Shown: positions 1-14,666 of the stretch, piece after piece
How the letters are laid out: each line of letters begins with the position of its first letter
Position numbering within the stretch: position 1 is the stretch's first letter
Assembly: GCF_016863015.1 (NCBI RefSeq)
Contig: NZ_BOOB01000003.1
Location: 186,001 to 250,000, forward strand
Direction of reading: 5' to 3'
Origin: Microbispora amethystogenes
GTDB taxonomy: Bacteria; Actinomycetota; Actinomycetes; Streptosporangiales; Streptosporangiaceae
Length of the DNA: 64,000 bases
Notes under the pieces: generated by a model
What the model was told of the DNA's origin: nothing
The model's database searches: none
Seen by the model: the letters and a program-made list of their open reading frames with translations, nothing else
Translations under genes and position numbers: made by a program

Positions 1-961
1 ACCACGTCAGATAGCTGTCGGTGGCGAACAGCGCGGCGGTCGCGGTGGTGAGCTGGTAGCTGGGGTTCAGCTCGGTCACCGAGATGCCGATGCTCGACGC
101 CCTGCTCCCGGCGTACTTGGAGATCAGGGAGCGGACCGTGCTGGTGATCGTCGAGATCTGCGAGACCTTGCCGAGGCTGTCGGCGGCCGAGGTGGCGCCG
201 GGGTACCAGTGGACGATGACGAAGTCGGCCTTGTCCTTCACGATCGACATGACCGTGTTGTTCCAGTCGGCGCTGTCGCCGGAGCCGACGATGCCGTCCG
301 GCCAGCCGCCCGGGGTGGTGAGCACCACGCCGATCTTGATGGAGGAGTCGACGGCCTTCATGGCCGAGATGTACTGCAGCACGTTGTTCGCGTACGCCTT
401 GGGGCTCTTGTCGGAGTGGTTGTCCTGCTCCCAGCCCGAGCCATAGTGGCCGTTGCCGTAGACCTCGTTGCCGATCTCCCAGTACTTGACGCCGTACCCC
501 TTGGTGACGTTGGCGTACTTCACCCAGTCGGCGGCCTCCTGCGCGGTGCCCGAGCCGTAGTTGGCGATGATGACCGGCTGCGCGCCGGCCGAGCGCACCG
601 TGCCCATGTAGGTGTCGAAGTCGGTGTTCGGCGCCACGTAGCCGCCGTCGGCGGTGTTGGTCTTCCAGTGGTAGATGTCGCCGTACGAGCCGCCGGGGTA
701 GCGGACGGCGGTGAAACCGGCGTCGCGCAGCAGGCCCGCGATGGGGGCGCTGTTCATGTTCCCGTCGTAGACGGCGACGTTGACCCCGTGCCCGGCGGCG
801 GGGATCGTGCCCAGGCTCGTGCCGGTGTTCACCGTCACGGTGGCGGATGTCGCGGCCGACGCGGGTGCGACGGTGACGGCCGTGACCGACGCGGCGGCGA
901 GCGCCGCGGACGTCAGCAGGGCCAGTCCGACGCGCCGCCGGCCTGTGAGCGAGGCGTGCAT
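1..961 (-). CDS. Secreted clan GH-A glycosidase, alpha-L-arabinofuranosidase-like (N-terminal 320 residues; 3' end outside window)
   Basis: The reading frame runs off the left edge. The ATG at 961 follows AAGGAG by 7 bases. Residues 1-36 form a signal peptide (RRR, hydrophobic stretch, then APASAA), so the enzyme is exported. The catalytic domain starts with GHGVNVAVYD and RYPGGSYGDIYHW (about 57-99). The clan GH-A acid/base is Glu166 in WEIGNEVYGNG, and a probable nucleophile is Glu297 in SVTELNP. Family knowledge: actinomycete homologues with this GVN..RYPGG..GNE..YGNG pattern are annotated as alpha-L-arabinofuranosidases that trim plant cell-wall arabinan or arabinoxylan, often with a C-terminal carbohydrate-binding module. 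That module, if present, lies outside the window. Substrate is inferred only. Confidence 0.8.
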   Translation of the reverse strand, partial: MHASLTGRRRVGLALLTSAALAAASVTAVTVAPASAATSATVTVNTGTSLGTIPAAGHGVNVAVYDGNMNSAPIAGLLRDAGFTAVRYPGGSYGDIYHWKTNTADGGYVAPNTDFDTYMGTVRSAGAQPVIIANYGSGTAQEAADWVKYANVTKGYGVKYWEIGNEVYGNGHYGSGWEQDNHSDKSPKAYANNVLQYISAMKAVDSSIKIGVVLTTPGGWPDGIVGSGDSADWNNTVMSIVKDKADFVIVHWYPGATSAADSLGKVSQISTITSTVRSLISKYAGSRASSIGISVTELNPSYQLTTATAALFATDSYLTW

Positions 962-1128
962 GGAGGAGCTCCTTCGAGCGATCGCGCTGTCGCCCGTGCC
1001 GGGCGCAGATCGAGCCGCATCCTGTTCCCCGCCACCCCGCACGGTCAACGAGAAGACCCCTCGCAACCTCCTGACCTGCGGTCGATTTCGTATGGAGTTG
1101 CAACTTTCATCATGCCGTCATGGTCATG

Positions 1129-1835
1129 TCACGGCGACAGCAGACACGCCAGGGCGTGTTCGAGCTCCTCGGGAGTCGCGACGGGCGCCGCCCAGGGGAC
1201 CCGGATGAGATGGCCGGGCCCCGGCCGCAGAGTGGCGCCGTAGCGGTCCAGCTCCCACAGCCACACCTCGCCGGGAGCCGCCTCGCCCGTCAGCCTCTCC
1301 GCCGCCTCCCTGAGCTGCTGCGCGTGGGACCCGTTGACGTGGCGCACCATGCGCTCGGCCGGTGGCAGCAGCGGGTCGGGGGCCGAGGCGAGGTACGTCT
1401 CGGCGTCGAGGACGCCCGAGTCCCCGCCGGTCAGATAGATCACGTGGCAGACGTCGACGCGCACCAGCGCGGGAGCACCGCCCTCGACGGCCGCGAAGAG
1501 GTCCTCGTCGGGGCACGCCTCCGCGATGGCGACGGCGGCGGCGCGGGCACGGGCCGCGTCCAGCCGCGCACCTTGAGCAGGGCGCGGGGCCGCTCGACCC
1601 CCCCGACCTCCCTGCTCGCGGAGAGGTCGACCGTCACCAGGGTCTCGGCGGGTGCGCCGTAGAGGACCTCGCCCGGCCGCACCAGCAGGACCGGCCGGCC
1701 CCTGCCGTCCACACCGCCGCGGGCGGCGGCCGTGGGCACGTCCGACCCGGCGACCGAGACGTGGGTGGGCGCCGACAGGGCCGCGAGAGTGCGTACGCGC
1801 TCGGGGACCGGGGGAGCGGTGACGGGATGCCGCAT
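1129..1835 (-). pseudogene. DUF2470-domain (HugZ/heme-utilisation-like) protein, frameshifted
   Basis: Two overlapping frames together make one protein. The first half starts at ATG 1835 (AAGGAG 5 bases upstream; MRHPVTAPPVPERV) and is open through LLKVRGW. The second half, in another frame, reads DAARARAAAVAIAEACPDED and continues to the end with the DUF2470 pattern: DPLLPPAERMVRHVNGSHAQ, LDRYGATLR, IRVPW. The break lies near 1560-1575. The expected text is W-L-D-A, and losing one copy of a 4-base CTGG repeat would produce the observed shift. So this is either a recent pseudogene or a sequencing error. Related proteins (HugZ-like flavin-fold domain plus DUF2470) are linked to heme or iron handling, which agrees with the iron box directly upstream. 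Confidence 0.65.
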
Positions 1836-1850
1836 GGGAGCTCCTTCGAT

Positions 1851-1887
1851 GTAGGTTAGGCTCACCTTAGTAAGGCTTACCTAACTT
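1851..1887. promoter_or_regulatory. Double DtxR/IdeR-type iron box between divergent promoters
   Basis: Bases 1851-1869 (GTAGGTTAGGCTCACCTTA) match the DtxR/IdeR consensus TWAGGTTAGSCTAACCTWA at 17 of 19 positions. Bases 1871-1887 (TAAGGCTTACCTAACTT) form a second, weaker overlapping copy of the same dyad. The site sits between the DUF2470 gene (ATG 1835, minus) and the S4 paralogue (ATG 1902, plus), so one repressor dimer pair could control both. It does not look like an actinobacterial Zur box. Iron-dependent repression of both genes is inferred. Confidence 0.7.
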
Positions 1888-1901
1888 GGAAAGAGGGCGC
1901 C

Positions 1902-2516
1902 ATGCGTTACACGGGACCGAAGGTGCGGCTGTCGCGCCGGGCGGGCGTTCCGCTCACCCGCAAGGCGGTGAAGTACTTCGAGGCCCGGCCCTACCCGCCC
2001 GGCGAGCACGGCCGTGCGACCAACCGCCGCACCGCCGGTGACTACGGCGTGCGGCTGCTGGAGAAGCAGAAGCTTCGCTGGTACTACGACGTGTCCGAAC
2101 GTCAGCTCCGCCGCTACTGGGACCTCGCCGTCCGCCGTCCCGGCCGGTCCGGCGAGGAGCTGGTGGCGCTCCTGGAGACCCGGCTCGCCTCCCTCGTCCT
2201 GCGGGCCGGCCTGGCGCCGTCCATCTACGCGGCCCGGCAGTACGTGAACCACGGGCACATCGCGGTCGACGGCCGCAAGGTGGACATTCCCAGCTACCAG
2301 GTCAAGCCGGGCCAGTCGGTGGCCGTACGGGACCGGTCCGTCAGGATGCAGCCGTTCGTCGCCGCCGCCGAGGGCACGTACGCCGACGAACGGATCGCCC
2401 CCTATCTGGACGTCGACCACCGCGGGCTGCGCTTCACCCTGCTGCGCCGCCCCGCGCGCGAGGAGATCGTGGTCCCGGTGGACGAGCAGCTCGTGGTCGA
2501 GCACTACTCCCGCTGA
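1902..2516 (+). CDS. rpsD: Ribosomal protein S4 paralogue lacking cysteines (C- form)
   Basis: 204 residues, full length for bacterial uS4. The N-terminal S4 domain carries YTGPKVRLSRRAGVPLTRKA and RPYPPGEHGR. The RNA-binding S4 fold follows (RLASLVLRAGLAPSIYAARQ, about residues 89-150), and the C-terminus is DEQLVVEHYSR. S4 is a 16S rRNA-binding assembly protein of the small subunit. There is no cysteine anywhere in the protein, so it cannot bind the zinc of the C+ form; such copies usually replace a metalloprotein form when metal is scarce. The promoter holds a DtxR/IdeR-like box, suggesting iron rather than zinc control. The main rpsD would be expected elsewhere, near rpoA, but cannot be checked here. 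Confidence 0.85.
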   Translation: MRYTGPKVRLSRRAGVPLTRKAVKYFEARPYPPGEHGRATNRRTAGDYGVRLLEKQKLRWYYDVSERQLRRYWDLAVRRPGRSGEELVALLETRLASLVLRAGLAPSIYAARQYVNHGHIAVDGRKVDIPSYQVKPGQSVAVRDRSVRMQPFVAAAEGTYADERIAPYLDVDHRGLRFTLLRRPAREEIVVPVDEQLVVEHYSR

Positions 2517-2560
2517 CGCCCCGGGCCTCTCCCTCGTTCGCGACCTCGTCGGCCGGGCCT

Positions 2561-5152
2561 TCAGCGCTCTTCGCCTCGATGGGCGGCCAGGAGGTCCTCG
2601 ATCGCGTTTGTGACAATCTCCACACCGTTGGGGATCTCGGCCAGGTCGGCGAGGAAGAGGCCGGGCCAGGCGTTGAAGTTCCTGGTGCGAGCCGCCCTGA
2701 GCTGCGGTCTGAGCGGAGGCAGCGCCTCCAGCGACGCCGCGAACCGAGCGACCGCCTCTTCTCCCACGTACCGGACCAGAGCACCGAGGCTGAAGTACAG
2801 GTTGGCCTTTTCGACTGTCTCCGCTCCCATGGTCAGCATCGGCCGGGGAGTGCCGTCGATCGGGTAGTGGGCGGAGATGCTCGGGTATCTCGCCTCGTTC
2901 GAGACTACGCGAGCACCCGATAGTTCGGCGTGGTCCATCACGTCGCGAAACACGGAGCGAACCTCGTGCGGTGCCTCGGACAACGCGGCCTCCAGATGCA
3001 TACGTGTCCACTTGGTCTGGGGCTGCAGGTCGCTGCGGTCGGCCAGCACACCCAGGGCCAGGTCCCACAGAGACCCTTCGCCCGGGACGACCCATCGCCT
3101 CGGTCCCTGGACGGAGACGGGAGCCGCCTGCCAGCCGGCAAGTTTCCAGATCAGATTGACCAGACCGGTGGGAGAGTACTGCCGCCCGTCGAGCGCCCAA
3201 AGCAGCGGCGCGGACCGATCGTTCACCCAGGATGCCTGTGCCCGGCGCGGGTCCTCACTGAGCCATGGGCCGAGAGCTCTGCGTTCCGGCCTTGTTCCGG
3301 CCTCGAAGGTAAGGAGGGTTCCCGGGGCTATGCGCTGCGCGTCGACCAGGGTCGGCACCGCGTTCGGACGACGCGTCCGCGGATTGGGCTTACTGCGCTG
3401 GTATTCGGGACGGAGCGCCGGGCTGGACACGCCACTTCGCATTGCAGTCAGCACGAGGTCGGCCAGCTGGGCACACCGCATCGGGTCGGTGAACAATCCC
3501 CTCGCGGAGGAGTCTGAGCCGAGAGACTCGTCGAAGTGATGGACCATCCAGGAAAGGGCCTCCTGCGTAAGCAGCGGGACCCGGGTGAGCTCCTTATCCT
3601 CCCAGGGATAGTCAGGGTCGTCGATGCTCTCGACGCCAAGCTGCTGGAAGACGACATGGGCGATGAGGAAGTCGCCGTACTCGGCGATGGCCTCGGCGCG
3701 GCCCTCCCGCTCCTTCTGGCCCGACTGGAGCGCGGCTCCCACCGCACGCAGCACGAGCACCGACCGCCAGATCTGGTGCGCGCTGGGTGGGCTGTCGCGG
3801 AACAGCAGGTTGTAGGCCTCCTGCTCGCCCTCCTCCCACAGCAGATCGATGCTCTGCTTCGCCCGGGCCGCGAGTTCGGGATTGCGATGCGCGCAGGCCA
3901 GGGCGGTGGCCGCGTGTACGACGGAGCAGCCCGCGTCGGGAGCGGGATCGGCCTCGCCCCTCTTGATTGTGTAGATCTTGCCGAGGTCGAGCGCGAAGTC
4001 CTGACGGATGACCGACTGCTCCCGGTGCAGGGAGACGAAGTCACGCTTCTCCACCCTGTTCTGTGTGTTCGTGCTGCGCGTTACCCGATCCCCGAAGCCC
4101 TCCGGACAGTCCTCGGTGGAGATCACTCGCACGCCGACGTATCCGGCCTGAGCGGTCTCTGGATCACGCCGCATCGCCTCGGCGATCGATACCACCGTCT
4201 GTGCGCCGTTCACGACGCTGGCACCCGTAAGACAGAGATCGATTGGCCCGTGGGTCGCCTTGCTCCATGCCTCAGGCTTCAGAGAATCGCAGAGCATGGT
4301 GATGCCGTTGTTGAAGTACCAGAAATCGGCCGGCTCCCGCAGCAGGGTGTCCACCATCTTGTGGTTCACCTCGGTGAGACCCAGCGACTTGCGGATGTTC
4401 TGCGTGAAGAGCCGGTCGCCGTGTGCCTCGAACCACTGGGCGACATCCGCCACCGAGACCCGGCCCTGGTACGCCTCGAACGGATCGCCCAAGTGGATCC
4501 ACTTGTCGAGCTTCGCGACGAGGTTGATCCCAGGCTCGGCCAGGTCGTCCCGGGCGGTCTCCCAGATCCTCTTTGTTCCCCAGACCTCGAAGTCGAGCAC
4601 ATCCTGCATCGTGTTGTATCGCTTCTGGGCGTTCGTGAATCGCCGTTCCACATCGGGATGCAGGTCGCCGGGGCCGGTAAGCGCGACCACGAGCGTCACC
4701 CGCAGATCGAAGTCGCGCCAGACGCTCTTGATGCGCTCTACCGCGTTCTCCTGGAAAGCCTGGTTGAAGTGCGCGAAGTTGTGATCGTCGATGTGGTCCA
4801 GCCCTTCGAGGAGCTTCAACGCTTCCCCGACGCCGAATCCAGCGCTTCCCCGATCGTTCCACTTGCTCTGGATGAGCCAGACGTGGGTGCTCTCCTCGTC
4901 GACCACGACCGCGTCGATACCGATCTCGTCGCGTCCGTCGATCAGCGTCTGCGCCGCCGCGTAGCTGTCCCAGCCGGTCAGTTTCCTGGCCACGATGCAG
5001 GCCAGCGCGCGGCTGAGGAACTTCCGCTCCCGTTCGTCCGGAGACTTGTTCGTGGAATCGCTCATGTCGATCAGATCATCGAACTCCCGATGCAGGGCCT
5101 CCTTGATCTGATGGATCTCTCGGGGCATGCCCGCAGGCTTGGTGGATCCCAC
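2561..5152 (-). CDS. AIPR-family abortive-infection protein with N-terminal PD-(D/E)XK-like nuclease and C-terminal RAMA/DUF4357-like segment
   Basis: 863 residues from a GTG at 5152. Residues 65-100 hold a Mrr-like PD-(D/E)XK pattern: DEIGID-AVVV then LIQSKW (Asp80, Gln95, Lys97). The AIPR core follows, with FWYFNNGITMLCD (277-289), VNGAQTV (314-320) and RSTNTQN (359-365); these are hallmarks of PF10592, named for phage abortive infection. Residues 600-695 (IAPGTLLTF, SWVNDRSAPLLWALDGRQYS, VQGPRRWVVPGEGSL) resemble the RAMA/DUF4357 modules that read modified DNA and occur in restriction loci; this assignment is tentative. The gene lies 68 bases after hsdM on the same strand and is probably the last gene of the R-M operon. 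Its job is likely a back-up phage response, but the trigger is unknown. Confidence 0.8.
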   Translation of the reverse strand: MGSTKPAGMPREIHQIKEALHREFDDLIDMSDSTNKSPDERERKFLSRALACIVARKLTGWDSYAAAQTLIDGRDEIGIDAVVVDEESTHVWLIQSKWNDRGSAGFGVGEALKLLEGLDHIDDHNFAHFNQAFQENAVERIKSVWRDFDLRVTLVVALTGPGDLHPDVERRFTNAQKRYNTMQDVLDFEVWGTKRIWETARDDLAEPGINLVAKLDKWIHLGDPFEAYQGRVSVADVAQWFEAHGDRLFTQNIRKSLGLTEVNHKMVDTLLREPADFWYFNNGITMLCDSLKPEAWSKATHGPIDLCLTGASVVNGAQTVVSIAEAMRRDPETAQAGYVGVRVISTEDCPEGFGDRVTRSTNTQNRVEKRDFVSLHREQSVIRQDFALDLGKIYTIKRGEADPAPDAGCSVVHAATALACAHRNPELAARAKQSIDLLWEEGEQEAYNLLFRDSPPSAHQIWRSVLVLRAVGAALQSGQKEREGRAEAIAEYGDFLIAHVVFQQLGVESIDDPDYPWEDKELTRVPLLTQEALSWMVHHFDESLGSDSSARGLFTDPMRCAQLADLVLTAMRSGVSSPALRPEYQRSKPNPRTRRPNAVPTLVDAQRIAPGTLLTFEAGTRPERRALGPWLSEDPRRAQASWVNDRSAPLLWALDGRQYSPTGLVNLIWKLAGWQAAPVSVQGPRRWVVPGEGSLWDLALGVLADRSDLQPQTKWTRMHLEAALSEAPHEVRSVFRDVMDHAELSGARVVSNEARYPSISAHYPIDGTPRPMLTMGAETVEKANLYFSLGALVRYVGEEAVARFAASLEALPPLRPQLRAARTRNFNAWPGLFLADLAEIPNGVEIVTNAIEDLLAAHRGEER

Positions 5153-5220
5153 TGGAATTGTCCTTGTCGGCGTAACACGGAACGGATGGCACTTACATGA
5201 GGTGTGGCGTGCGCGTGTAG

Positions 5221-6789
5221 TCAGGAGGACTCGGCGAACGGAGGCTGTTCTCCTTCGGCACCGTGGCCCAGGGCGGCGGCGATGGCTTCGATCTGGGTGA
5301 GCGCGGCTCTCAGGTCGGCCGCGATCGAGTGGGCGATCTCCTCCGGGGTACGCGGCGCGGTCTCTCCGCCTGAGCCGTCCCTCGGCCAGGAAATGTCGAG
5401 GTTGACCTTCTCACGAGCAATTAGTTCCTCGTAGGTGAACGGCCTGAATCGGTCCGTAGCGACACGCTCGTCATGCGGTTTGCCGGGAAGGTAGGAGTCG
5501 ACGAAGTCCTGGAGATGCTCACGGCGCAGCGGGCGCTGCTTGAGGGTGAAGTTCTCCCCGGTGCGGAAGTCGTACACCCACAACTGTGACGTCCACGGCG
5601 TCTCCGATGGGCGCCTGCGCTCGAAGAAGAGCACGTTCGCCTTCACACCGCCCGCGTAGAAGATCCCGGTGGGCAGCCGAAGCAACGTGTGGACGTCGTA
5701 CTCCTTGAGTAGACGCCGCCGGATCGTCTCGCCGGCCCCGCCCTCGAAGAGCACGTTGTCGGGCAGCACTACGGCGGCCCGTCCGTCGATCTTCAGCAGC
5801 TTCGCTATGTGCTGCAGGAAGTTCAACTGCTTGTTCTTCGTCGTGACCCAGAAGTCGCGGCTCGCGTAGACGGCCTCGTCCTTGACCGCCTTCTTGTCGT
5901 CTCCGATCACAGTGATCGCGGACTTCTGGCCGAACGGAGGATTGGCGAGAACCACCGACGCCCTGACCTTCGGTTCGGCCAGGAGAGCGTCGCCCACCTC
6001 GATGACTTCCTGGTTCTCGCTGGGGACGACCCCATGGGTCAACATGTTCATGGCTGCCAGGCGCGCTGTGCTCCTGACCAGTTCGATGCCGTGAAAGGCG
6101 TGACCGCGACTGAGCCGGTTGCGAAGGTCGGGGTCGAGCGACTCGGCTGGGTATTCACGGCGCAGATACTCGTTGGCGGCCAGCAGGAACCCGCCGGTGC
6201 CGCAGGCCGGGTCGACGATCGTGTCCTCCGGCGTCGGACGCACGCAGTCGACCATCGCCCGGATCAGTGGGCGCGGTGTGAAGTACTGCCCGGCGCCCGA
6301 CTTCACGTCACTGGCGCTTCGCGCCAGAAGCTCCTCGTAGGCGTCGCCTTTCACATCGACGCCCTCCTTCGACCATTGAATCTTGCCGATCAGATCCTTG
6401 ATCAGCCGCTCCAGCAGGCCGGTCGCCTGGATCTTGTTCTGGGCGCCGAGGAAGATGAGCCGGAACATGCCGGGGCGTTCCCCGAGGACCTCCAGCACGT
6501 GCTCGTAGTACTCCTTGAGATCCTCGCCCTTCTTGCCGGCCAGAGTGTCCCAATCGATGCCGAGGGGAAGGACGCGGTGCGGCTTCCCCCTGCGCGCGTT
6601 CTTCTTCTCCTGCTCGTCCATCATCTTCAGGAACAAGAGGTAGGTGAGCTGCTCGACGTAGTCGATCGCCGGTACGCCCGCATCCCGGAGCACATCGCAG
6701 TAGCTCCACAGCCTGTCTACGAGAGAACGCGTGTGCGCCGCCGTCTCCCGCGACTCGCCTTCTGGTGCCTGATTCAGCGTGTCGGTCAC
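5221..6789 (-). CDS. hsdM: Type I restriction-modification system methyltransferase subunit HsdM
   Basis: 522 residues, a normal HsdM length. An N-terminal helical HsdM_N domain (about 20-155) precedes the N6-adenine methyltransferase domain. The latter has GAGQYFTPRPLI (165-176), the SAM-binding motif DPACGTGGFL (193-202) and the catalytic NPPFG (283-287). With HsdS it forms the M2S methylase that protects host target sites; with HsdR it forms the restriction complex. Its start overlaps the end of hsdS by 4 bases (ATGA at 6786-6789), so translation is coupled. Confidence 0.97.
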   Translation of the reverse strand: MTDTLNQAPEGESRETAAHTRSLVDRLWSYCDVLRDAGVPAIDYVEQLTYLLFLKMMDEQEKKNARRGKPHRVLPLGIDWDTLAGKKGEDLKEYYEHVLEVLGERPGMFRLIFLGAQNKIQATGLLERLIKDLIGKIQWSKEGVDVKGDAYEELLARSASDVKSGAGQYFTPRPLIRAMVDCVRPTPEDTIVDPACGTGGFLLAANEYLRREYPAESLDPDLRNRLSRGHAFHGIELVRSTARLAAMNMLTHGVVPSENQEVIEVGDALLAEPKVRASVVLANPPFGQKSAITVIGDDKKAVKDEAVYASRDFWVTTKNKQLNFLQHIAKLLKIDGRAAVVLPDNVLFEGGAGETIRRRLLKEYDVHTLLRLPTGIFYAGGVKANVLFFERRRPSETPWTSQLWVYDFRTGENFTLKQRPLRREHLQDFVDSYLPGKPHDERVATDRFRPFTYEELIAREKVNLDISWPRDGSGGETAPRTPEEIAHSIAADLRAALTQIEAIAAALGHGAEGEQPPFAESS

Positions 6790-8264
6790 GAGGACAGCCC
6801 CTCCTCTGGGAACAGCGCTTCTTGGGTTTCGGCTGAGGGCACGTCTGCAGGCATCGGCCGCATGAGATCACTGCGACCCACAGGCGCGGCATCTTCGGCC
6901 AGGCGAGGATCGGGCATCACGGCCGTCCGCCTGCTCGGCCGTCGCATTTGCTTCACTGAAGCCGTGCGTTCGGTAGCGATCCGCTGGAGAAGCTCTTCGG
7001 CCGGGGCGTCCGTTGGGTCCTGAGGCACCAGTCGGCCTTCGAAGGCGTTGGTCAGCAACCTGCCGCGAAGGGCAGCGGCCTGCACCTTCACCCGGTCGAT
7101 CAACTCAGCGAGGGACTCGACTTCCGCAAGTCGCTTCGCCACTCGCCCGACAATCTCGTGCTGCTCCTCGACAGGTAAGGCAGGTATAGGTGTCCGGAGA
7201 ATCGTCCCCTGGTCGATCTTCGGCATCGAGCCGGCAAGCCCCTTGGCTGAAGCTTTGAAGAAGTGGCGGATCTTGCTGGTCTGCAGAACGAGCTGCACGA
7301 AGTCAGGGGACGCCTCGCTGTTCAGTCGCACGCGTATCAGCAGGTCCGGAAAGACTGCCCACTGCTTCTCTCCGTTGAAAAGTGCCGATGTTCCGACCAG
7401 CTCTGGAGTGTTGGAGCGCTGGACTAAAATATCGCCGGGCTCTAGCCAAAGGTCGCGAACGCGTGCCGATTCGGCCGTCGCTATCTTGGTGTTGGTCTCG
7501 GTGAACTGGTTTTTTGTCACCGCCGTCAAGGTGAGAGTCCTGACGCCTACTCCGTCCGCTGAGGCCCGCCCGGAGTAGCCGTTGCGAAGAGGCTCTCTCA
7601 GGAGTGACTCCAACGGTCTCGTCTGTGTCGAAGTAGCGGTCTCGATGGCATCCGTCCTGATGCGATCGACAAGCTCTACCATTTGTGCTTCCGCTGAAAA
7701 AAGCATCTCTTGCACAGTGGACAGGTGGCTCAGGTGATTTTCCAAGGCGCGAACTATACGCTGCTGCTCGCTTTTTGGTGGAACCGGAACGGGCAATCTC
7801 TTGATTGTGGACAGGCTGATGGAAGCTAGATTGGTAGTCTGCTTCCCGTTCGATGCGAACCATTCTTGGGCGCACTCGTTTGCGAACCAGGCGAGGATCT
7901 GGGGATGCAGGACATTGCCGTGAATGCGAGCGCGGAAAACATGATTCTGGTGGATGCATTCTGAGAGCTGCCCCTCCCAAACCCATCCTCTGCCGAGCTT
8001 ATCGCGGTCGCCTCCCTCGTTGAGCAACACGTCGCCGGGAAGAAGCCGGAGACGCTCGACCACCGCTGGGGGAACCCGAATTTCTGCTATTGATCCGAGA
8101 TCGATTCGGCCACGCTGAACGTTGGCGACCCGTAGATAAGGAACGAGAGGAAGGGTGGGGTCGGACTGTTTCTTTGTGTCCTTGGTCACACCTCCGACGA
8201 CGTCAGCTATTTCGCCAAGAGTCGTCCATGCCCAGGAGTCCGGGATCGAGGGCAATGAAGTCAT
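6786..8264 (-). CDS. hsdS: Type I restriction-modification system specificity subunit HsdS
   Basis: 492 residues with the usual two target-recognition domains. TRD1 (about 1-170, starting SIPDSWAWTTLGEIADVV) ends in the conserved helical spacer LPVPVPPKSEQQRIV. TRD2 (about 215-380) ends in IPALPVEEQHEIVGRV. A C-terminal tail rich in Arg/Thr/Pro follows. HsdS chooses the bipartite DNA target for HsdM and HsdR. The DNA here is visibly more AT-rich than its neighbours, with several A/T runs between 7400 and 8260, consistent with horizontal acquisition or TRD exchange. It overlaps hsdR by 4 bases at 8261-8264. Confidence 0.95.
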   Translation of the reverse strand: MTSLPSIPDSWAWTTLGEIADVVGGVTKDTKKQSDPTLPLVPYLRVANVQRGRIDLGSIAEIRVPPAVVERLRLLPGDVLLNEGGDRDKLGRGWVWEGQLSECIHQNHVFRARIHGNVLHPQILAWFANECAQEWFASNGKQTTNLASISLSTIKRLPVPVPPKSEQQRIVRALENHLSHLSTVQEMLFSAEAQMVELVDRIRTDAIETATSTQTRPLESLLREPLRNGYSGRASADGVGVRTLTLTAVTKNQFTETNTKIATAESARVRDLWLEPGDILVQRSNTPELVGTSALFNGEKQWAVFPDLLIRVRLNSEASPDFVQLVLQTSKIRHFFKASAKGLAGSMPKIDQGTILRTPIPALPVEEQHEIVGRVAKRLAEVESLAELIDRVKVQAAALRGRLLTNAFEGRLVPQDPTDAPAEELLQRIATERTASVKQMRRPSRRTAVMPDPRLAEDAAPVGRSDLMRPMPADVPSAETQEALFPEEGLSS

Positions 8265-11200
8265 GCGGTGAGGTTCCTTGTGAGGTCGTCGAGGAGGGTG
8301 GGGGCGCGGTCGCCGAAGGCATCGTAGAAGCCGTCCTCGCCGCCGCGCAGGTCGAAGGGAGCGTAGTCCAGGGCGTCTTCAGCGACCTCCGCGCTGTTGA
8401 CGATGATCTCGCACAGTTTGTCCAGGAACCACCGCTGCATCGGTGAGAAGGCGCCCTCGGCTGCCTGGTGCCGGGCGAGCCGGGCCGCGTACCGCTCTTC
8501 CACGATGCTGCGGAACGGTCGCAACTCCGCGTCGAGACGCAGCTCGTACCTGATGATGGAGACGAGGTCGGTCGGCCTGGCCCGGTAGCCCCGGGTGCGT
8601 ACCTTGTCCTCGGTCTTCTCGTACGCCTCCCACAGGTGCGTCACGTTGCCGACGAGGGGGACTCGTTCGATGCGGTGGGCCAGATCGCTGACCTCGGCCC
8701 AGGACAGCCGGACGGTGCCGCTCCCTTCCAGCGCCCGCATGAGGGCGATCGAATCGCGGTGGGTGCGAAGGTAGGAGCGGAAGGACTCGACGGTGTTGCG
8801 CGCGATGCGCTCGCGCGGCACGACGCTCGCGTCGGTGACCTTGTCGCGGCTGATCTCGTCGATGAGCTGGTCGTGCTTGTCCCGGATGTCGATGATTCGC
8901 TCACGCAGTTCCGGGTTCTCGGCCAGCGGGCGGGCGGCCTCCCGCAGTCGCTCGGCGACCGCGTCCTCGCCGCCCTGGTCGGCGGTGTGGGCGAGTTCGT
9001 CGGGGTCGACCGCCGTGGCGAGTTTCTGGACCAGTTCGCGCAGGGTCGTGCCCTGACCGACCTGAGCGAGTTCGTCGCGTTCGGCGTCATTGATCTTGCG
9101 GTCGAGAGCGTCCAGGCGTGCGGCCAGGGTGGCGGTCTGGGCCTCGTCCAGGGAGAGGGCGGCGGCCCGGGAGAGAAGCTGCTTGAGGCTGAGCCGGTTC
9201 TCCGGGTCCCGGTTCAACGGTGTGGCCTGGCACAGCGGATGATCGGTGACCCCGACGGCGTCCACGATGACGAAGCGGTCCTTGGTCGTGACACCCTCGT
9301 CCGGGGTGACGGCCTGGAAGTCGTCCGGGTCGATGGTGCGGCAGCCGCGGCCCTTCATCTGCTCGAAGTAGACGGCGCTCCTCACGCTGCGCATGAAGAA
9401 CACACATTCCAGAGGCTTGACGTCGGTGCCGGTGGCGACCATGTCCACGGTCACCGCGATCCGCAGGTCAGCACTGGTTCGCAGCCGCCGCAGCAGGTCC
9501 TTGGGGTCCTCGCCGGCCAGTTTCGACCGGTAGGTGATCTTCGCGCAGAAGTCGTTGCCCTTGCCGAACACGTCGCGTACGGCCTGCACGATGTCGTCGG
9601 CGTGTGAGTCGTCCTGCGCGAAGATAAGCGTCTTTGGCACCGTCGAGGCATAGTGCGGGAACATGCGCGGCAACACGTGGTCGCGGTAGGCCGACACGAC
9701 GGTGCGGATCTGGTCCTTGGCGACCACCGACCGGCCGATCTCCCGCGAGCCGTAGGTGAAGTCCTCGTCGAGTTCCTCGTACCGCTGCCTGCGGGTGCGC
9801 CGATCCCGCTTCGGCACGACCGTACGGGTGCCGTCCTCGTCCAGGGCCGGAATCGTCGAGCCGTCCTCGCCGATCTTCGTCTTGATCCGGAACACGGCGA
9901 AGTCGACGTTGACGCGGTCGGCGACGGACTGCTCGTAGGTGTACTCGCTGACCGGATCACCGAAGAACGCGAGTGCCTGCGCGGTCGGCGTGGCGGTCAG
10001 ACCGACGACGGGCGCGTCGAAATACTGCAGGACGGCCCGCCAGCGCCCGAAGATCGACCGGTGGCACTCGTCCACCACCACGAGGTCGAACGCCTCGGGC
10101 GGCAGTGCGGTGTTGTAGACCGCGTCCACGGGCCGGGAAGGGACGAAGTCGTCCACGTCCTGCTCGTCGGCTTCTCCGGCGGGCAGCGGCTGACCGGTGA
10201 GCGCGCGGTAGAGCCGCTGGATCGTGGTGACGACCACACTCGCGGAGTCGAGCACAGTGCCGCTGGAGAGGCGCTGAACGGTGTAATCCTCGCCGAGCGT
10301 CTGCCCGCTGTCGGTGACGTACCGAGCGAACTCCCCGGCCGCCTGATCACCCAGGTTGTTCCGGTCGACTAAGAAGAGGACGCGTTTCACCCCGGCGTAC
10401 CTGAAGAGCCGATAGGAGAGCGTGACGGCCGTGAACGTCTTGCCCGCGCCGGTGGCCATCTGCACCAGCGCACGCTGGTGGTTGCCGCGAAGGTGACGCT
10501 CCATCCGTTCGATGGCGTCGGCCTGTGCCGGTCGCAGCCCGTCGGCGTCGAGCGGCGGCATGGTGCGCAGCCGGGCACGGAACGTGGGGGCCTGCGGTGT
10601 TTCACCGGCCTCGGCCATCCAGCGCGCGATGGTCTCGGGCCGGTGGAAGGAGAACACCTCGCGCGATCGGGAATCGGGGTCGAGCGTGCAGGTGAAGTGC
10701 GTCTCGACCCCGGTGCTCTCGTAGCGGAACGGGAGCGGCTCGTCGCGCCGCCACACGGCCATACGGTGGCTCCCGGGCAACGCGGACGCATAGTCGTCTG
10801 ACTGCCACTCCACCCCGGTCAGTGGCGTCCCCTCACGCTTGGCCTCGATGACTCCAACGATCTTCTGATCGACGTAGAGGACATAGTCGGCGCGCTTGCG
10901 GCCGATGGCGAACTCCCGTACGGCCACTCCTCGGCCCGCGCCGGGGTTGAGCTCCGGCATGTCCTGCACGATCCAGCCGGCCTCGCTGAGCATCCGGTCG
11001 ATCGTGCGCCGTGTCTGGGCCTCGGTCAGCGGCGGAGCCTGACGCGCCCGGCGGCCGATGGCGTCCCGCCGGGCCGGGGAGACTTTGGCGGGCCCGGCCG
11101 TCTCCTGTTCGAACCGAGCGCGCAGGGCGTTGAGTTCCGCTGCGAGGGCCTGCACCTGTGCGGCTGCGCCATCACGGTCAGCCTGCGCTCGGTTGAGTTC

Positions 11201-11779
11201 CGCCTCGGCCGCCTGACGGGCCTCTGCTTCGGCCTGCTCCCGGGTACGAGACCCGTCCAGCACGAGCTTGGCCTCGGCTAGTTCTGATTTGAAGCGTTCC
11301 AGCTCCGTGGTGAGTTCGGCACTGGCGAGGAGCGCGGGCGGTGACAGGGGAACGAAGGCGACGAGTTCCCGCTCGCCCGTGATCGCGCGATGGAGCAGCA
11401 GGCCCAGTTGGAAGCAGCGTTCGAGGCAGCGCAGGGCCGTGGGAGCGCTGGCCGCGTGCGCGTGCACGGCTTCGTTCCCCGACCGGCGGATCTGATGGAA
11501 CGCGTCGGCGACATTCGGCGTGATCACGTTCGCCGTGGTCAGGGCGTTGATGCGATGAACCAGGTTATGTCCGTCCACCGGAATTCCGGTGGACCGAATC
11601 ATCACGGCCGTCAGCACTTCGATGAATTGGCGGCATTTGATGAGCGCGCCATTCGGGTCGGTGAAAACGATGGCCTCGGCACCCGCGCCATAGGCCACCA
11701 GAAGTGGCTCGTGCCGGAGTAGGAACCCGAAATTAGGGGAGCGGCCGGCGAGATCGCGTAAGCGTGGGTCCTCCGTCAC
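8261..11779 (-). CDS. hsdR: Type I restriction endonuclease subunit HsdR with N-terminal DUF4145
   Basis: I chose the GTG at 11779 because AAGGAC lies about 7 bases upstream; an ATG at 11794 is the alternative. The long open frame beyond it has no RBS or conserved content. The protein has 1172 residues. A DUF4145 domain comes first (SPNFGFLLRHEPLLVAYG), then an Ala/Glu-rich coiled coil. The HsdR_N nuclease has RADYVLYV and GVIEAKRE (near residue 310). The SF2 translocase has QMATGAGKT (about 440), VVDECHRS (about 570) and GLTATPT. It cuts DNA after ATP-driven translocation when HsdS sites are unmethylated. This is the first gene of the R-S-M-AIPR operon. Confidence 0.95.
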   Translation of the reverse strand: MTEDPRLRDLAGRSPNFGFLLRHEPLLVAYGAGAEAIVFTDPNGALIKCRQFIEVLTAVMIRSTGIPVDGHNLVHRINALTTANVITPNVADAFHQIRRSGNEAVHAHAASAPTALRCLERCFQLGLLLHRAITGERELVAFVPLSPPALLASAELTTELERFKSELAEAKLVLDGSRTREQAEAEARQAAEAELNRAQADRDGAAAQVQALAAELNALRARFEQETAGPAKVSPARRDAIGRRARQAPPLTEAQTRRTIDRMLSEAGWIVQDMPELNPGAGRGVAVREFAIGRKRADYVLYVDQKIVGVIEAKREGTPLTGVEWQSDDYASALPGSHRMAVWRRDEPLPFRYESTGVETHFTCTLDPDSRSREVFSFHRPETIARWMAEAGETPQAPTFRARLRTMPPLDADGLRPAQADAIERMERHLRGNHQRALVQMATGAGKTFTAVTLSYRLFRYAGVKRVLFLVDRNNLGDQAAGEFARYVTDSGQTLGEDYTVQRLSSGTVLDSASVVVTTIQRLYRALTGQPLPAGEADEQDVDDFVPSRPVDAVYNTALPPEAFDLVVVDECHRSIFGRWRAVLQYFDAPVVGLTATPTAQALAFFGDPVSEYTYEQSVADRVNVDFAVFRIKTKIGEDGSTIPALDEDGTRTVVPKRDRRTRRQRYEELDEDFTYGSREIGRSVVAKDQIRTVVSAYRDHVLPRMFPHYASTVPKTLIFAQDDSHADDIVQAVRDVFGKGNDFCAKITYRSKLAGEDPKDLLRRLRTSADLRIAVTVDMVATGTDVKPLECVFFMRSVRSAVYFEQMKGRGCRTIDPDDFQAVTPDEGVTTKDRFVIVDAVGVTDHPLCQATPLNRDPENRLSLKQLLSRAAALSLDEAQTATLAARLDALDRKINDAERDELAQVGQGTTLRELVQKLATAVDPDELAHTADQGGEDAVAERLREAARPLAENPELRERIIDIRDKHDQLIDEISRDKVTDASVVPRERIARNTVESFRSYLRTHRDSIALMRALEGSGTVRLSWAEVSDLAHRIERVPLVGNVTHLWEAYEKTEDKVRTRGYRARPTDLVSIIRYELRLDAELRPFRSIVEERYAARLARHQAAEGAFSPMQRWFLDKLCEIIVNSAEVAEDALDYAPFDLRGGEDGFYDAFGDRAPTLLDDLTRNLTA

Positions 11780-11905
11780 CCCAGGTCCTTCCATGCCCGG
11801 CTTCGATCGTCGTTGCCCAGTCTGCATGATCAGGCAAGCCGTTTTTCTGGCATTCAGGACATCGGAGGCTAATCCCTGTCGACACAATCTGATCACAGTG
11901 CCCGG

Positions 11906-11939
11906 ACCCCGCCGGTCGGGACAATCCGACCAGCGGGGT
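11906..11939 (-). terminator. Long GC hairpin after the DUF6907 gene
   Basis: ACCCCGCCGGTCGG (11906-11919) can pair with CCGACCAGCGGGGT (11926-11939) over 14 positions with a single mismatch, around the loop GACAAT. It begins 7 bases after the stop codon of the DUF6907-like gene (11947), and hsdR starts about 130 bases further downstream on the same strand. It therefore probably separates the regulatory pair from the R-M operon. There is no U-run, as is common for actinomycete terminators. Confidence 0.5.
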
Positions 11940-11946
11940 GGAGACG

Positions 11947-12273
11947 TCAGGCCCCTGGTACCGGGGGGTCCGGCGATTCCATGCCGCCCAGGCTGCCGAG
12001 TTCGATCAGGTGAACCCCGGCGGCGCGTGCCTGGGAAACCGTCAGTTCGGCGACAAGGTGGTCGTCGAGCTGGACCTGTACATATGGTTCGTCGTCCTCC
12101 GGTCGGAGGATCAGGTCGAGCCACAACTGTCGGGACAGGGGATCCGCGCTCAGCTCCACGCCGCGCAGCCATGCGTTGTGGATACGCTCGCCGCGCCGCT
12201 CGCCGATGTGCGCCTCCATGCACCAGGGCGGGCACCACCGAGTGCGCAGGAAGGCCCTGACGAGGCGCTTCAC
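11947..12273 (-). CDS. Small DUF6907-like protein with CPPWC motif
   Basis: 108 residues from a GTG at 12273 that overlaps the stop of the upstream 72-residue gene (GTGA, 4 bases), so the two are translationally coupled. The N-terminus reads TRWCPPWCMEAH. This Cys-Pro-x-Trp-Cys...His arrangement is typical of the small actinobacterial DUF6907 family and could bind a metal. A predicted beta-rich half follows (LWLDLILRPEDDEPYVQVQL). Such proteins are usually encoded beside XRE regulators in streptomycetes and relatives, as here. Function is unknown; an accessory or sensing role with the XRE protein is a guess from context. Confidence 0.7.
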   Translation of the reverse strand: MKRLVRAFLRTRWCPPWCMEAHIGERRGERIHNAWLRGVELSADPLSRQLWLDLILRPEDDEPYVQVQLDDHLVAELTVSQARAAGVHLIELGSLGGMESPDPPVPGA

Positions 12274-12488
12274 GGACCCACCGCCAGGTCGGCCAGGCTC
12301 TCCTGCTCGGCGATGGCGTGGCAGAGCTCGCGCAGGTCGTCGCCGTCCACGGTGCGGAAGGCGCCCGCGTCCTCCGCTCGGAGGGGGAACGGACGCTCGC
12401 GGGTCGCCCAGAAGCGGCCCGCGTCGCTCCGCATGATCCGCCACCCGGCGAACCTCGTCCCGGCGGTGTTGCCCCTATCGTGTGACAT
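12270..12488 (-). CDS. 72-residue hypothetical protein paired with XRE/DUF6907 module
   Basis: Starts at ATG 12488 with AGGAGG upstream. The sequence has GWRIMRSDAGRFWATRERPF in its first half and an acidic helix (GDDLRELCHAIAEQESL) in the second. Small proteins with this GWRI.R.D.GRFWATR pattern are recurrent partners of actinomycete XRE regulators, but I know of no assigned activity. It is divergent from the XRE gene at 12668 and coupled to the DUF6907-like gene. Confidence 0.7.
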   Translation of the reverse strand: MSHDRGNTAGTRFAGWRIMRSDAGRFWATRERPFPLRAEDAGAFRTVDGDDLRELCHAIAEQESLADLAVGP

Positions 12489-12667
12489 GGGTCAGGACCT
12501 CCTCCTGATCAAGGGACCCGTACGGCGCCGCGAACGCCTGCGGGTCCCGCGTTTTACCAGGTCGTGAACCCTGGACGATGTCATCATGGGGAACGGTCGG
12601 GGACGCCGGAAGCGCATCGGCGCTGGGAGCTCGGCCTCCAGCGCCCACCAGCAACCGAGAGGTGCCC

Positions 12668-13951
12668 GTGCCGCGTTCCTCCGAGCCGGTCAATCCGGCT
12701 GCTTCCCCCTGGCATCTGCTCGGCTCCGCCGTACGGCACTGGCGCGAGGAGGTGCGGCATCTCAGCCAGCGCGAGGTGGCCAAGGCGGCCTATCTGGACG
12801 ACGGGGACCTGTCGAAGTGGGAACGCGGGCTTGCTCGCCCGCACGCGGACGTGGTGGCGAGGCTGGATACGGCTCTCGGTGCGGGTCAGCACCTTGTGGC
12901 GCTGCACGCCACTGTCGTGGAGCTGGAAAGGCTGCGTACGGTGGCGACGGGACCACGCGCGGAGGAGGAGATCGCGACGGAACGCCGACATCTTCTGCAA
13001 CTCGCCATCGCCGGGACGCTCGGCGCCGGTTCCGAGCCCATTCGGCGGCTCCTCGGTGACGCGTTCGGCCAGGAGTTCCGGGCCGTCGAGGACTGGGAAA
13101 TGGCCTGCGCGGACCACCTGTACGCGTTGCGGACTCGCCCCCCGTCCCAGGTGGCGTCGGACCTGCTCGTCGACCTGCTGACCGTGCGGCGGCAGTTGGA
13201 GACGGCGACTCCCGCTCAAGCCGTCGAGCTCCAGCGGATCACCGCCACGCTCGCGTCCGTGCAGGGCAACGCATTGACCCGCCTGGGCGAGCACGGCGCG
13301 GCGCTGCGCTGGTGGCGTACGGCCCGCCAGGCGGCCGACGCCTCCGGCGACCTCGGGCTGCGGCTGATGGTCCGGGGGGAGGAGGCGGGCCACGGGCTCT
13401 ACGGGCAGCGCGACCCGGAGACCGTGCTGGGCCTCGTCGAGAGCGCCGAGCGGATCGCGGGCGGGCCGACCGCTGACCTGCTCACCACCCGGGCGAAGGC
13501 GTTGAGCCTGCTGGGCAGGCACGACGAGGCGCGCGACACCGTGAATGCCCTCATCGCGCTCGCGTGCGGCGGCGTCAAAGGAGAAGCGTTCGGCTTCTGG
13601 AAACCGGACCAGATCAACTTCGCGGAGAGCTGGGTGTACGCCAGCGCGGGTGACGAGGCGGCGGCTGACCGCGCCAGGCAGCAGGTGCTCGCCGCCACCC
13701 GCGACTATCAGTACGACGCGAACGTCCGTCTGCACGAGGCGCTCTGCATCGTCTCCAAGGGAGGAGCGGACACGGGCATGCGCCAAGCCGCCGCCGTGAT
13801 CACCAGCCTTCCGGCCGCCTATCGCAGCCACCACATCGTGCAGACCGGGCGTCTGGTGCTGCGGGCCGTACCGGTGGACCAGCGCGGACGCAGGGCCGTC
13901 GGCGAGTTCCGCGAACTCCTCGGGGCAGGCGCTGGGACCGCTACGGCGTGA
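12668..13951 (+). CDS. XRE-family HTH regulator with TPR-like C-terminal domain
   Basis: I place the start at GTG 12668 (GAGAGG 5 bases upstream), giving 427 residues; the frame is open back to 12578. The N-terminal HTH (about 10-75) includes SQREVAKAAYLDDGDLSKWE. The remaining 350 residues are alpha-helical with TPR-like repeats (e.g. RLGEHGAALRWWRTARQAAD and SLLGRHDEARDTVNAL). This architecture is common in actinomycete developmental and stress regulators, where the helical part binds a peptide or partner protein. It is divergent from the 72-residue/DUF6907 pair, which it probably regulates. Its 3' end overlaps the convergent GNAT gene by 11 bases. Confidence 0.85.
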   Translation: MPRSSEPVNPAASPWHLLGSAVRHWREEVRHLSQREVAKAAYLDDGDLSKWERGLARPHADVVARLDTALGAGQHLVALHATVVELERLRTVATGPRAEEEIATERRHLLQLAIAGTLGAGSEPIRRLLGDAFGQEFRAVEDWEMACADHLYALRTRPPSQVASDLLVDLLTVRRQLETATPAQAVELQRITATLASVQGNALTRLGEHGAALRWWRTARQAADASGDLGLRLMVRGEEAGHGLYGQRDPETVLGLVESAERIAGGPTADLLTTRAKALSLLGRHDEARDTVNALIALACGGVKGEAFGFWKPDQINFAESWVYASAGDEAAADRARQQVLAATRDYQYDANVRLHEALCIVSKGGADTGMRQAAAVITSLPAAYRSHHIVQTGRLVLRAVPVDQRGRRAVGEFRELLGAGAGTATA

Positions 13952-14666
13952 TCCGCGGCGACGGGGGCCACGGCGTACGGAAGCCGCGGAAGGTCACGCG
14001 CCTGCGGACGGCGAAGCCGAGCCGCTCGTAGAGGGCGATCGCGGAGGTGTTGGCTTCGGCCGCGTGGAGGAACGGGCGCTCGTTCCGCGCGATGATGCGT
14101 GCGACCAAGGCGTTCACCAGCCGGGCGGCATACCCCCGCCCGCGCGCTTCGGGGGCGGTGCAGACGGCGCTGATCTCGGTCCATCCGGGTGGGCGGAGCC
14201 GTTCGCCCGCCATGGCGACCAGGGCGCCGTTCTCGCGGATTCCCAGGTAGGTGCCGAGTTCGTGAGTGCGGGGCCAGAACGGTCCCGGCCGGGTCCGCGC
14301 GGTGAGATCGAGCATCTCCGGCACGTCGCCGACCCCCAGTTCGACTATCTCCGAGCAGGGCTCGACGTCGGCGCGACCGGGGATCGCGGGAAAGACCAGC
14401 TGGAGGCCGTCGAGAGTGAAGAGCGGCTCCCAGTCGGCGGGCGGGGTCGCCGGGCAGCTGAACAGGTCGGCGAACCCGCCGCGACCGAGCAGGCGCGCGA
14501 GGTCGTCCCACTCCGCCGGGTCCGGCTCGGCGGACACCGTGGAGAAGCTCGCGACCTCCGGCAGGTAACCGGCAGCCCGGCCGAGCCGGCGGGCGAGGTG
14601 CGCGTGGTGGCCGCGGAGCGACTCGCCGACCGGGTCGTCGAGTGCGACGGTGTCGCGGTCGATCAT
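13941..14666 (-). CDS. GNAT-family N-acetyltransferase (FR47-like)
   Basis: About 241 residues from ATG 14666 (MIDRDTVALDD), preceded by GGAAGG; an ATG at 14711 would add 15 residues encoded by tandem repeats. The acetyl-CoA-binding motif A is in the C-terminal third: AVCTAPEARGRGYAARLV. Motif B follows (ANTSAIALYERLGFAVRR). The N-terminal half is poorly conserved, as in other FR47-like enzymes. It transfers an acetyl group to an unknown amine in the cytoplasm. It stands alone between convergent and unrelated genes. Confidence 0.85.
   Translation of the reverse strand: MIDRDTVALDDPVGESLRGHHAHLARRLGRAAGYLPEVASFSTVSAEPDPAEWDDLARLLGRGGFADLFSCPATPPADWEPLFTLDGLQLVFPAIPGRADVEPCSEIVELGVGDVPEMLDLTARTRPGPFWPRTHELGTYLGIRENGALVAMAGERLRPPGWTEISAVCTAPEARGRGYAARLVNALVARIIARNERPFLHAAEANTSAIALYERLGFAVRRRVTFRGFRTPWPPSPRITP

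Follow-up and report, generated by a model that had tools for sequence, protein, structure and literature searches.

A RAMA-bearing AIPR protein behind a type I restriction-modification operon of Microbispora amethystogenes as a possible accessory DNA nuclease

The window analysed here, 64,000 nucleotides of DNA from Microbispora amethystogenes (GCF_016863015.1, contig NZ_BOOB01000003.1, positions 186,001-250,000), carries a type I restriction-modification (R-M) operon followed by a gene for an 863-residue protein of the AIPR family; all coordinates below are positions in this window. Our tentative proposal, which we hold at slightly less than an even balance, is that the AIPR protein may be an accessory, possibly nucleotide-gated DNA nuclease whose RAMA domain would discriminate between states of DNA in the vicinity of adenine-methylation systems. 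The observed support consists of the predicted anatomy of the protein, the conservation of a candidate active site, the linkage to HsdM-like genes and the unity of the cassette in which the four genes lie; a role in defence is putative.

According to the list of open reading frames (ORFs), hsdR, hsdS, hsdM and the AIPR gene all lie on the minus strand. The restriction subunit is encoded by hsdR (8261-11779), in which Pfam recognises an N-terminal DUF4145, HSDR_N, ResIII/helicase (1e-35 for ResIII) and EcoEI_R_C (8e-18); two starts can be read from the sequence, GTG at 11779 or ATG at 11794, and the match of HsdR to NCBIfam PRK11448 (5e-129) is yet under the cut-off of that model. The specificity subunit gene hsdS (6786-8264) matches Pfam Methylase_S (2e-10) and PADLOC Specificity_I (7e-86), and hsdM (5221-6789), for the N6-adenine methyltransferase, matches Pfam N6_Mtase (3e-63) and PADLOC MTase_I (7e-171). 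The catalytic motifs of the type I R-M system are intact, DPACGTG and NPPF in HsdM as well as GAGKT and DECH. The AIPR gene (2561-5152) is matched by Pfam AIPR (8e-36) and PADLOC AbiU (4e-29); the Pfam model (PF10592) gives the window protein 124.7 bits against a gathering cut-off of 25, and it matches 22/22 aligned rows at E up to 10, the best at 3e-38. Pfam and PADLOC concur on a type I R-M system plus an AIPR protein, and the NCBIfam matches of the operon proteins agree with this, none of them being above its cut-off. An earlier reading of the sequence alone (the sequence-only reading) had described 4-base overlaps between hsdR and hsdS and between hsdS and hsdM, and a start of the 863-residue AIPR gene 68 bases past hsdM on the same strand, all of which the ORF coordinates bear out. 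No terminator-like sites were found on the minus strand of the hsdM-AIPR gap and no promoter-like sites in 2400-12300, with search models that do not cover actinobacterial promoters, and the leader folds no better than shuffled sequences. The fusion of DUF4145 to type I R subunits is reported in PMC3506569 (here and below, published work is cited from partial text), and the window HsdR bears such a domain at its N-terminus.

The anatomy of the AIPR protein was taken from an AlphaFold2 (AF2) model built from 88 sequences, with a mean predicted local distance difference test score (pLDDT) of 84.5 and blocks within residues 11-700 mostly above 85. Folds were assigned with VIA-align, a re-alignment limited to the top 1000 chains of Foldseek; in sequence-only searches of the PDB neither the full protein nor profiles of its three domains had a credible relative. 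With good confidence, the N-terminal domain (residues 8-207; 4532-5131, minus strand like all parts of the gene) is predicted to have a PD-(D/E)XK nuclease fold, residues ~24-207 aligning with FokI (2fok) at Z 9.0 and a root-mean-square deviation (rmsd) of 3.5 over 146 residues, followed by MspJI (Z 7.8), HamA (7.5) and NucS (6.1), with Card1, Shedu and Cap4 also among the matches, while evidently unrelated proteins score Z 4.4-5.3 in the list of the whole model. The D-x(14)-QxK motif that had been pointed out at the N-terminus is present as D80-x14-Q95-x-K97 (4862-4915), our candidate active site, and its three residues are identical in 22/22 rows of a smaller alignment and in 88/88 rows of the larger one, the window row being included in both and six RAMA-less relatives of ~560 residues from viral contigs in the latter. 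A Q in place of D/E in the QxK motif is Mrr-like, and MspJI is a modification-dependent enzyme. Weak matches to Pfam Mrr_cat_2 were seen in 3/22 members, the best at E 0.04. The protein may thus have nuclease activity. A sample of the phylum held 14 AIPR loci, of which eight matched the nuclease profile (E 1e-3) and five the RAMA profile, the window being in both, which indicates that the nuclease is more widespread in the AIPR family than RAMA. An N-terminal HEPN domain, stated for AIPR in PMC3506569, finds no support in the window protein, which has no HEPN match in Pfam and whose predicted N-terminal fold matches PD-(D/E)XK.

The assignment of residues 595-705 (3038-3370) to a RAMA-like domain is likewise good. 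The modelled segment aligns with MPND bound to DNA (7ydw) at Z 9.7 and rmsd 2.2 over 89/92 residues, and with the C-terminal part of the methyltransferase CcrM (6pbd) at Z 8.7. Comparison of profiles by hhalign, 28 AIPR segments against 18 Pfam-RAMA proteins, gave a probability of 87.6% and an E-value of 3.5e-6, with 0.7% for the control. W630, R637, A640, W642, W652, D655, Y659, G683 and W687 are nearly invariant in the AIPR segment, which contains an insert carrying the conserved W630 and R637, and from model and alignment together we take the segment to be a divergent RAMA. The RAMA/DUF4357-like segment that had been placed at 600-695 is thus RAMA-like by structure, with slightly wider boundaries, and structure prediction, the check that had been named for both ends of the protein, yields a PD-(D/E)XK-like fold at the N-terminus and a RAMA-like fold here. 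The anatomy proposed in the sequence-only reading is in this respect supported by the model. In MPND the DNA backbone is contacted by two serines and one tryptophan (PMC9963953). A 360-residue protein in the locus of one relative (L052, 1930-3012, plus strand), with a Pfam NucS_C match of 1e-5, ends in an AIPR-type RAMA segment, which indicates that this RAMA variant moves between nucleases.

Two further parts of the model had no place in the sequence-only reading, namely a ParB/sulfiredoxin (Srx)-like middle domain and a C-terminal module at residues ~710-863 that is taken up further below. The middle domain (residues 210-400; 3953-4525) overlaps the Pfam AIPR match and provisionally most resembles the ParB/Srx fold, of which the modification-sensing nuclease SspE is also a member; this is the weakest of our assignments. 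Over residues 222-375 of the whole model VIA-align gives ParB (7o0n) Z 5.7, ParB-N 4.4 and SspE (7drs) 4.3; when the domain is modelled alone (pLDDT 82.6), 4/999 chains reach Z of at least 2, and these belong to three entries, one ParB-N and two sulfiredoxins, at Z 4.4-4.8. A motif N315-G-A-Q-T319 (4196-4210), of which N315, G316 and Q318 are identical in 88/88 rows, stands at the position of DGQHR/DGQQR of DndB/SspE, and it aligns with DGQHR in an hhalign comparison that is itself not significant. This part of the protein might use a nucleotide. Between it and RAMA the AF2 model has a helical domain (residues 401-577; 3422-3952).

The linkage to HsdM-like genes was surveyed in relatives. The family sample contained a match in 38/200 genomes, the window's own included, and in 21 besides it the match covers most of residues 1-710, one of these reaching residue 572; a scan of GTDB genomes gave 458 relatives, and other sources added 11 from viral contigs and 110 plasmid and 19 phage records, nearly all of the latter two distant or partial. 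We examined the best 80 of the 458 relatives, all labelled Actinomycetota and many closely related, and counted a protein as RAMA-bearing when its alignment to residues 578-708 of the window protein comprised 81 residues or more, as in 82/88 rows. With mechanical gene calls (a GC3-based script), an HsdM-like gene was found within the fetched flanks of ~10 kb per side in 61/80 RAMA-bearing loci, in 49 of the 60 that have both flanks of at least 9 kb, at most three genes away in 42 and directly adjacent in 13. The conservation of AIPR-hsdM linkage in relatives, for which the sequence-only reading had proposed a survey, is therefore seen in these loci. The family sample alone gave an HsdM-like gene in the fetched stretch of 13/21 homologues. 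As background, the same HsdM query gave 17 matches in 21 related genomes (~145 Mb by listed sizes), counted with a different program and in genomes mostly of the window's own genus, which corresponds to a chance well below 1% per stretch. Among RAMA-less AIPR loci, drawn from the family and phylum samples with flanks of at most ~9.3 kb, six having a flank below 4 kb, an HsdM-like gene was found in 3/27, against 3/4 RAMA-bearing loci of that same search; the difference between 61/80 and 3/27 has a Fisher p of 2e-9, uncorrected for kinship, and a wider HsdM profile gave 62/80 and 4/27.

The tree of the AIPR proteins indicates that this association has not only been inherited. The RAMA-bearing rows form a single clade, and on the tree we counted at least 10 changes between window-like and other HsdM-like partners and 14 changes between having and lacking an HsdM-like neighbour, where the partner label follows the best HsdM identity in the locus (at least 45% being window-like) regardless of gene position; the repeated changes imply that the link between AIPR and HsdM has been re-made. 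The order R-S-M-AIPR on one strand, as in the window, occurs in five relatives (L062, L070, L073, L084 and L101). In the first of these the identity to the window is 75% for HsdM, 73% for HsdR, 53% for AIPR and 46% for HsdS, so that the AIPR protein may be evolving almost as quickly as the specificity subunit, or may have been exchanged. In another five loci (L063, L066, L071, L076 and L080) the AIPR relative stands beside two HsdM-like genes, HsdS and a protein of ~1050-1110 residues, which is HsdR-like in L071, the single one scanned, and is followed by a kinase-TPR protein in L066; each of these cassettes is thus a type I-like system whose two M subunits differ. Single relatives lie near DISARM DrmD (L116), MADS-like mad6/mad7 (L118), a Gabija-like UvrD helicase (L133) and a kinase (L123). 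One RAMA-bearing AIPR gene (L138) is on an IMG/VR viral contig and is nested in the actinobacterial clade. A close AIPR relative of 567 residues (42% identity; L049, 8620-10323, minus strand) ends at the RAMA boundary, and no HsdM-like gene was found within its fetched stretch.

The unity of the cassette is seen in an empty site. In a congeneric species whose left flank is 96% identical (L281), window positions 1-2527 and 12214-12612 are just 7 bases apart, so that 2528-12213 is absent, comprising the AIPR gene, hsdM, hsdS, hsdR and ~420 bases beyond hsdR; as all four genes are missing together, they behave as one unit. The right end of the cassette lies within a DUF6907 ORF (11947-12444). Of six further relatives, L282, L283, L285 and L286 have window ~2520-2527 joined to ~13956-13969, the junction in L284 is between 2521 and 17166, and L287 is without a right-hand match. 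With 65% GC the cassette lies below its left flank (71%) and the remainder of the window (73%), and insertion in M. amethystogenes is a simpler reading than loss in the relatives. No repeats of at least 12 bases were found between 2440-2700 and 12100-12350; a single 11-mer is away from the junctions.

With these elements the proposed function can be worded as a mechanism. The protein would combine a PD-(D/E)XK nuclease, a ParB/Srx-like switch that may bind or hydrolyse a nucleotide, a helical part and RAMA. RAMA would engage DNA and report the presence of adenine methylation set by the neighbouring HsdM/HsdS, and its signal, of either sign, might pass via the ParB/Srx-like part to free or restrain the nuclease. 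If the type I enzyme fails, unmethylated invading DNA would be cut, or the cell sacrificed. The logic would be that of SspE, in which a host mark licenses the nuclease, carried over to adenine methylation. The function suggested in the sequence-only reading, that of a second line watching for failure of R-M or for modified bases of phages, is plausible as a hypothesis; because the operon methylates its own genome, we infer that a plain trigger by N6-methyladenine (6mA) or phage modification is harder to reconcile with it than a nuclease restrained or licensed by self methylation. A broader version, in which such a nuclease is a general second effector across many methyltransferase systems (several kinds of type I R-M, and singly MADS-like and DISARM), its RAMA reading the methylation of the host and its PD-(D/E)XK domain being freed against unmarked DNA through a ParB/Srx-like nucleotide switch, we regard as rather unlikely.

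Several observations weigh against the proposed nuclease. As to the model, Foldseek gave no match at E 0.001 for either the full protein or the middle domain, and the block 71-80 around D80 has a pLDDT of 78, which makes it a less sure part. The ParB/Srx matches, at Z 4.1-5.7, do not outscore rows of that list which are evidently unrelated, hhalign of the middle domain gave 0.8% for DndB and 0.2% for ParB, neither significant, and the arginine of DGQQR, required by SspE, is replaced by T319. The window AIPR protein was unmatched by Pfam RAMA (PF18755) at E 1e-3 in the scan of its own genome and in the other Pfam scans, and the tryptophan of NGW, invariant in 18 RAMA rows, is P684 in the window protein. 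RAMA as a reader of 6mA is itself contested: binding of 6mA is disputed (PMC9963953, PMC11037411), and binding by MPND was unaffected by 6mA, though earlier work had claimed selectivity (PMC9963953). As to the linkage, no HsdM-like gene was found in the fetched flanks of 19/80 loci, 11 with both flanks of at least 9 kb and eight with a flank below 9 kb, and since the RAMA-bearing rows are one clade, the contrast between RAMA-bearing and RAMA-less loci is near to one evolutionary event and not to 80.

Other functions would fit parts of the same evidence. The AIPR protein could act as a guard of the type I enzyme itself, cutting host DNA when HsdMS is inhibited or methylation drops, in a role similar to PARIS or PrrC, and in line with this it sits behind hsdM in the operon and the four genes are present or absent jointly; abortive infection gave the AIPR family its name, and an association of the family with R-M is stated (PMC3506569); guardians of R-M are an established idea (PMC12707154). 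The relatives, however, also adjoin methyltransferase systems of quite other kinds and change between them, so that recognition of one particular Hsd complex is unlikely and the guard would need to read the mark and not the enzyme; we consider this function improbable overall. A restriction enzyme similar to type IV, cutting phage DNA on which its RAMA detects adenine methylation or some other modification, is suggested by the likeness of the nuclease fold to MspJI and by two published fusions, RAMA-Mrr(PD-QXK)-NTPase and GIY-YIG-RAMA, that are described as type IV candidates (PMC11037411). Linkage to enzymes of the kind that methylate host adenines makes this distinctly improbable, since a plain 6mA trigger would attack self unless a different site or mark were recognised.

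Nor need the nuclease fold be used for cleavage: a DndB-like protein of the ParB superfamily could tune the modification operon or bind DNA near it, with the nuclease fold serving for binding. DndB itself, described as a member of that superfamily, is claimed to be an ATP-dependent negative regulator (PMC10853773), its N-terminus being placed in the AbiU1/AIPR family (PMC3506569). The identity of the candidate catalytic residues in all 88 rows, which mere binding would not need, and the lack of significant kinship to DndB by profile leave us thinking such a regulator most improbable. Finally, the neighbourhood may have arisen just because defence genes cluster, the AIPR protein having no functional tie to methylation, as would be allowed by the loci without an HsdM-like gene and by the relatives near further defence genes such as kinases and the Gabija-like UvrD helicase. 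RAMA-less AIPR proteins, likewise predicted defence genes, are however far less linked to HsdM, the type of partner changes while an HsdM-like neighbour is mostly retained, and the four genes come and go together, so that mere co-residence seems very unlikely to us.

The nuclease that we propose can be set beside known systems. The window middle domain is a clear Pfam match to AIPR/AbiU1 (PF10592), and the literature describes AIPR in the company of R-M operons and, for one island, of type I R-M genes (PMC3506569, PMC2292703, PMC5379612); the window protein differs in its predicted PD-(D/E)XK N-terminus, where an N-terminal HEPN toxin is stated (PMC3506569), and in RAMA and the extra C-terminal module, which are unmentioned for AIPR in the available parts of those three papers. 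The nearest parallel in logic is SspE, a phosphorothioate-sensing DUF262/ParB-like GTPase with an HNH nickase, which on recognising the host mark hydrolyses more GTP, comes off self DNA and begins to nick (PMC9646914). The window AIPR protein may share with it a ParB/Srx-like domain (a weak fold match of residues 222-365, Z 4.3) together with a nuclease, and has a partner modification system in the adjoining hsdM/hsdS; unlike SspE it has PD-(D/E)XK instead of HNH, RAMA as a separate reader, N-G-A-Q-T at the likely place of the DGQQR needed for GTP hydrolysis, and adenine methylation instead of phosphorothioation as the work of its partner. With MPND and the CcrM C-terminus it shares, by prediction, the RAMA fold (Z 9.7 and 8.7), from which it departs by falling below the Pfam threshold, by the insert with W630 and R637 and by the missing NGW tryptophan. 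Mrr carries a QxK-type motif, and the window protein resembles MspJI/Mrr-type modification-dependent enzymes in this motif and in its nuclease fold, while its RAMA reader, ParB/Srx-like middle and methyltransferase linkage set it apart. The RAMA-Mrr-NTPase fusions (PMC11037411) also belong among the RAMA-domain proteins. MzaE, the AIPR protein of MZA, is another relation, since NCBIfam MzaE (NF041935) matches residues 241-373 at 3e-9, but with 36 bits against a cut-off of 1050; the scanned flanking genes are hsd genes and regulators, in scans that were not aimed at MZA partners.

The C-terminal module (residues 710-863; 2564-3025) is poorly modelled, with pLDDT mostly below 60, and rare, being matched in 4/249 genomes with its own counted. 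The aligned proteins of the 80 loci and the viral contig above (L058-L138) are 692-755 residues long, so that the module is an addition without counterpart in near relatives; another relative (L050) has a separate tail that is unlike it, and a search of viral contigs with the module gave no relative. A similar module ends a 384-residue protein (L053, 10306-11460) that by eye only is PD-(D/E)XK-like and has no nuclease match in Pfam, and also two proteins of ~640 residues (L151 and L152), whose DNA-binding domain is MGMT-like and which have weak matches to HEPN/Mrr_N.

Two observations concern the surroundings of the cassette. The stretch 12214-13956, with part of the DUF6907 ORF and a helix-turn-helix regulator, is absent in 4/7 relatives fetched, which points to a second gain or loss at the same spot, separate from the cassette. 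On the left, a second gene for ribosomal protein S4 (1902-2516; 45% to the S4 encoded elsewhere in this genome) has a counterpart of at least 89% identity in 9/15 genomes of the genus and a partial one in one more.

The association of AIPR with R-M was already known (PMC3506569, PMC2292703, PMC5379612), as was the RAMA-Mrr(PD-QXK)-NTPase fusion (PMC11037411), and the sole AIPR mechanism suggested in the literature seen is a predicted HEPN RNase (PMC3506569). An AIPR protein that combines PD-(D/E)XK, ParB/Srx-like and RAMA domains, is linked to methyltransferases and switches partners did not turn up in searches of the open PMC literature, judged mostly by titles. If the proposed nuclease is right, it would give type I R-M a further level at which self is told from non-self and help to explain the company of AIPR and R-M genes. 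The broader version, if true, would set an adenine-methylation counterpart beside SspE, assign a function to the RAMA domain and explain how one AIPR subfamily works, its N-terminus having been taken for a HEPN RNase (PMC3506569). AIPR with RAMA beside adenine methyltransferases offers a compact natural test of the role of RAMA, in which one protein is compared between hosts that have and hosts that lack a neighbouring methyltransferase.

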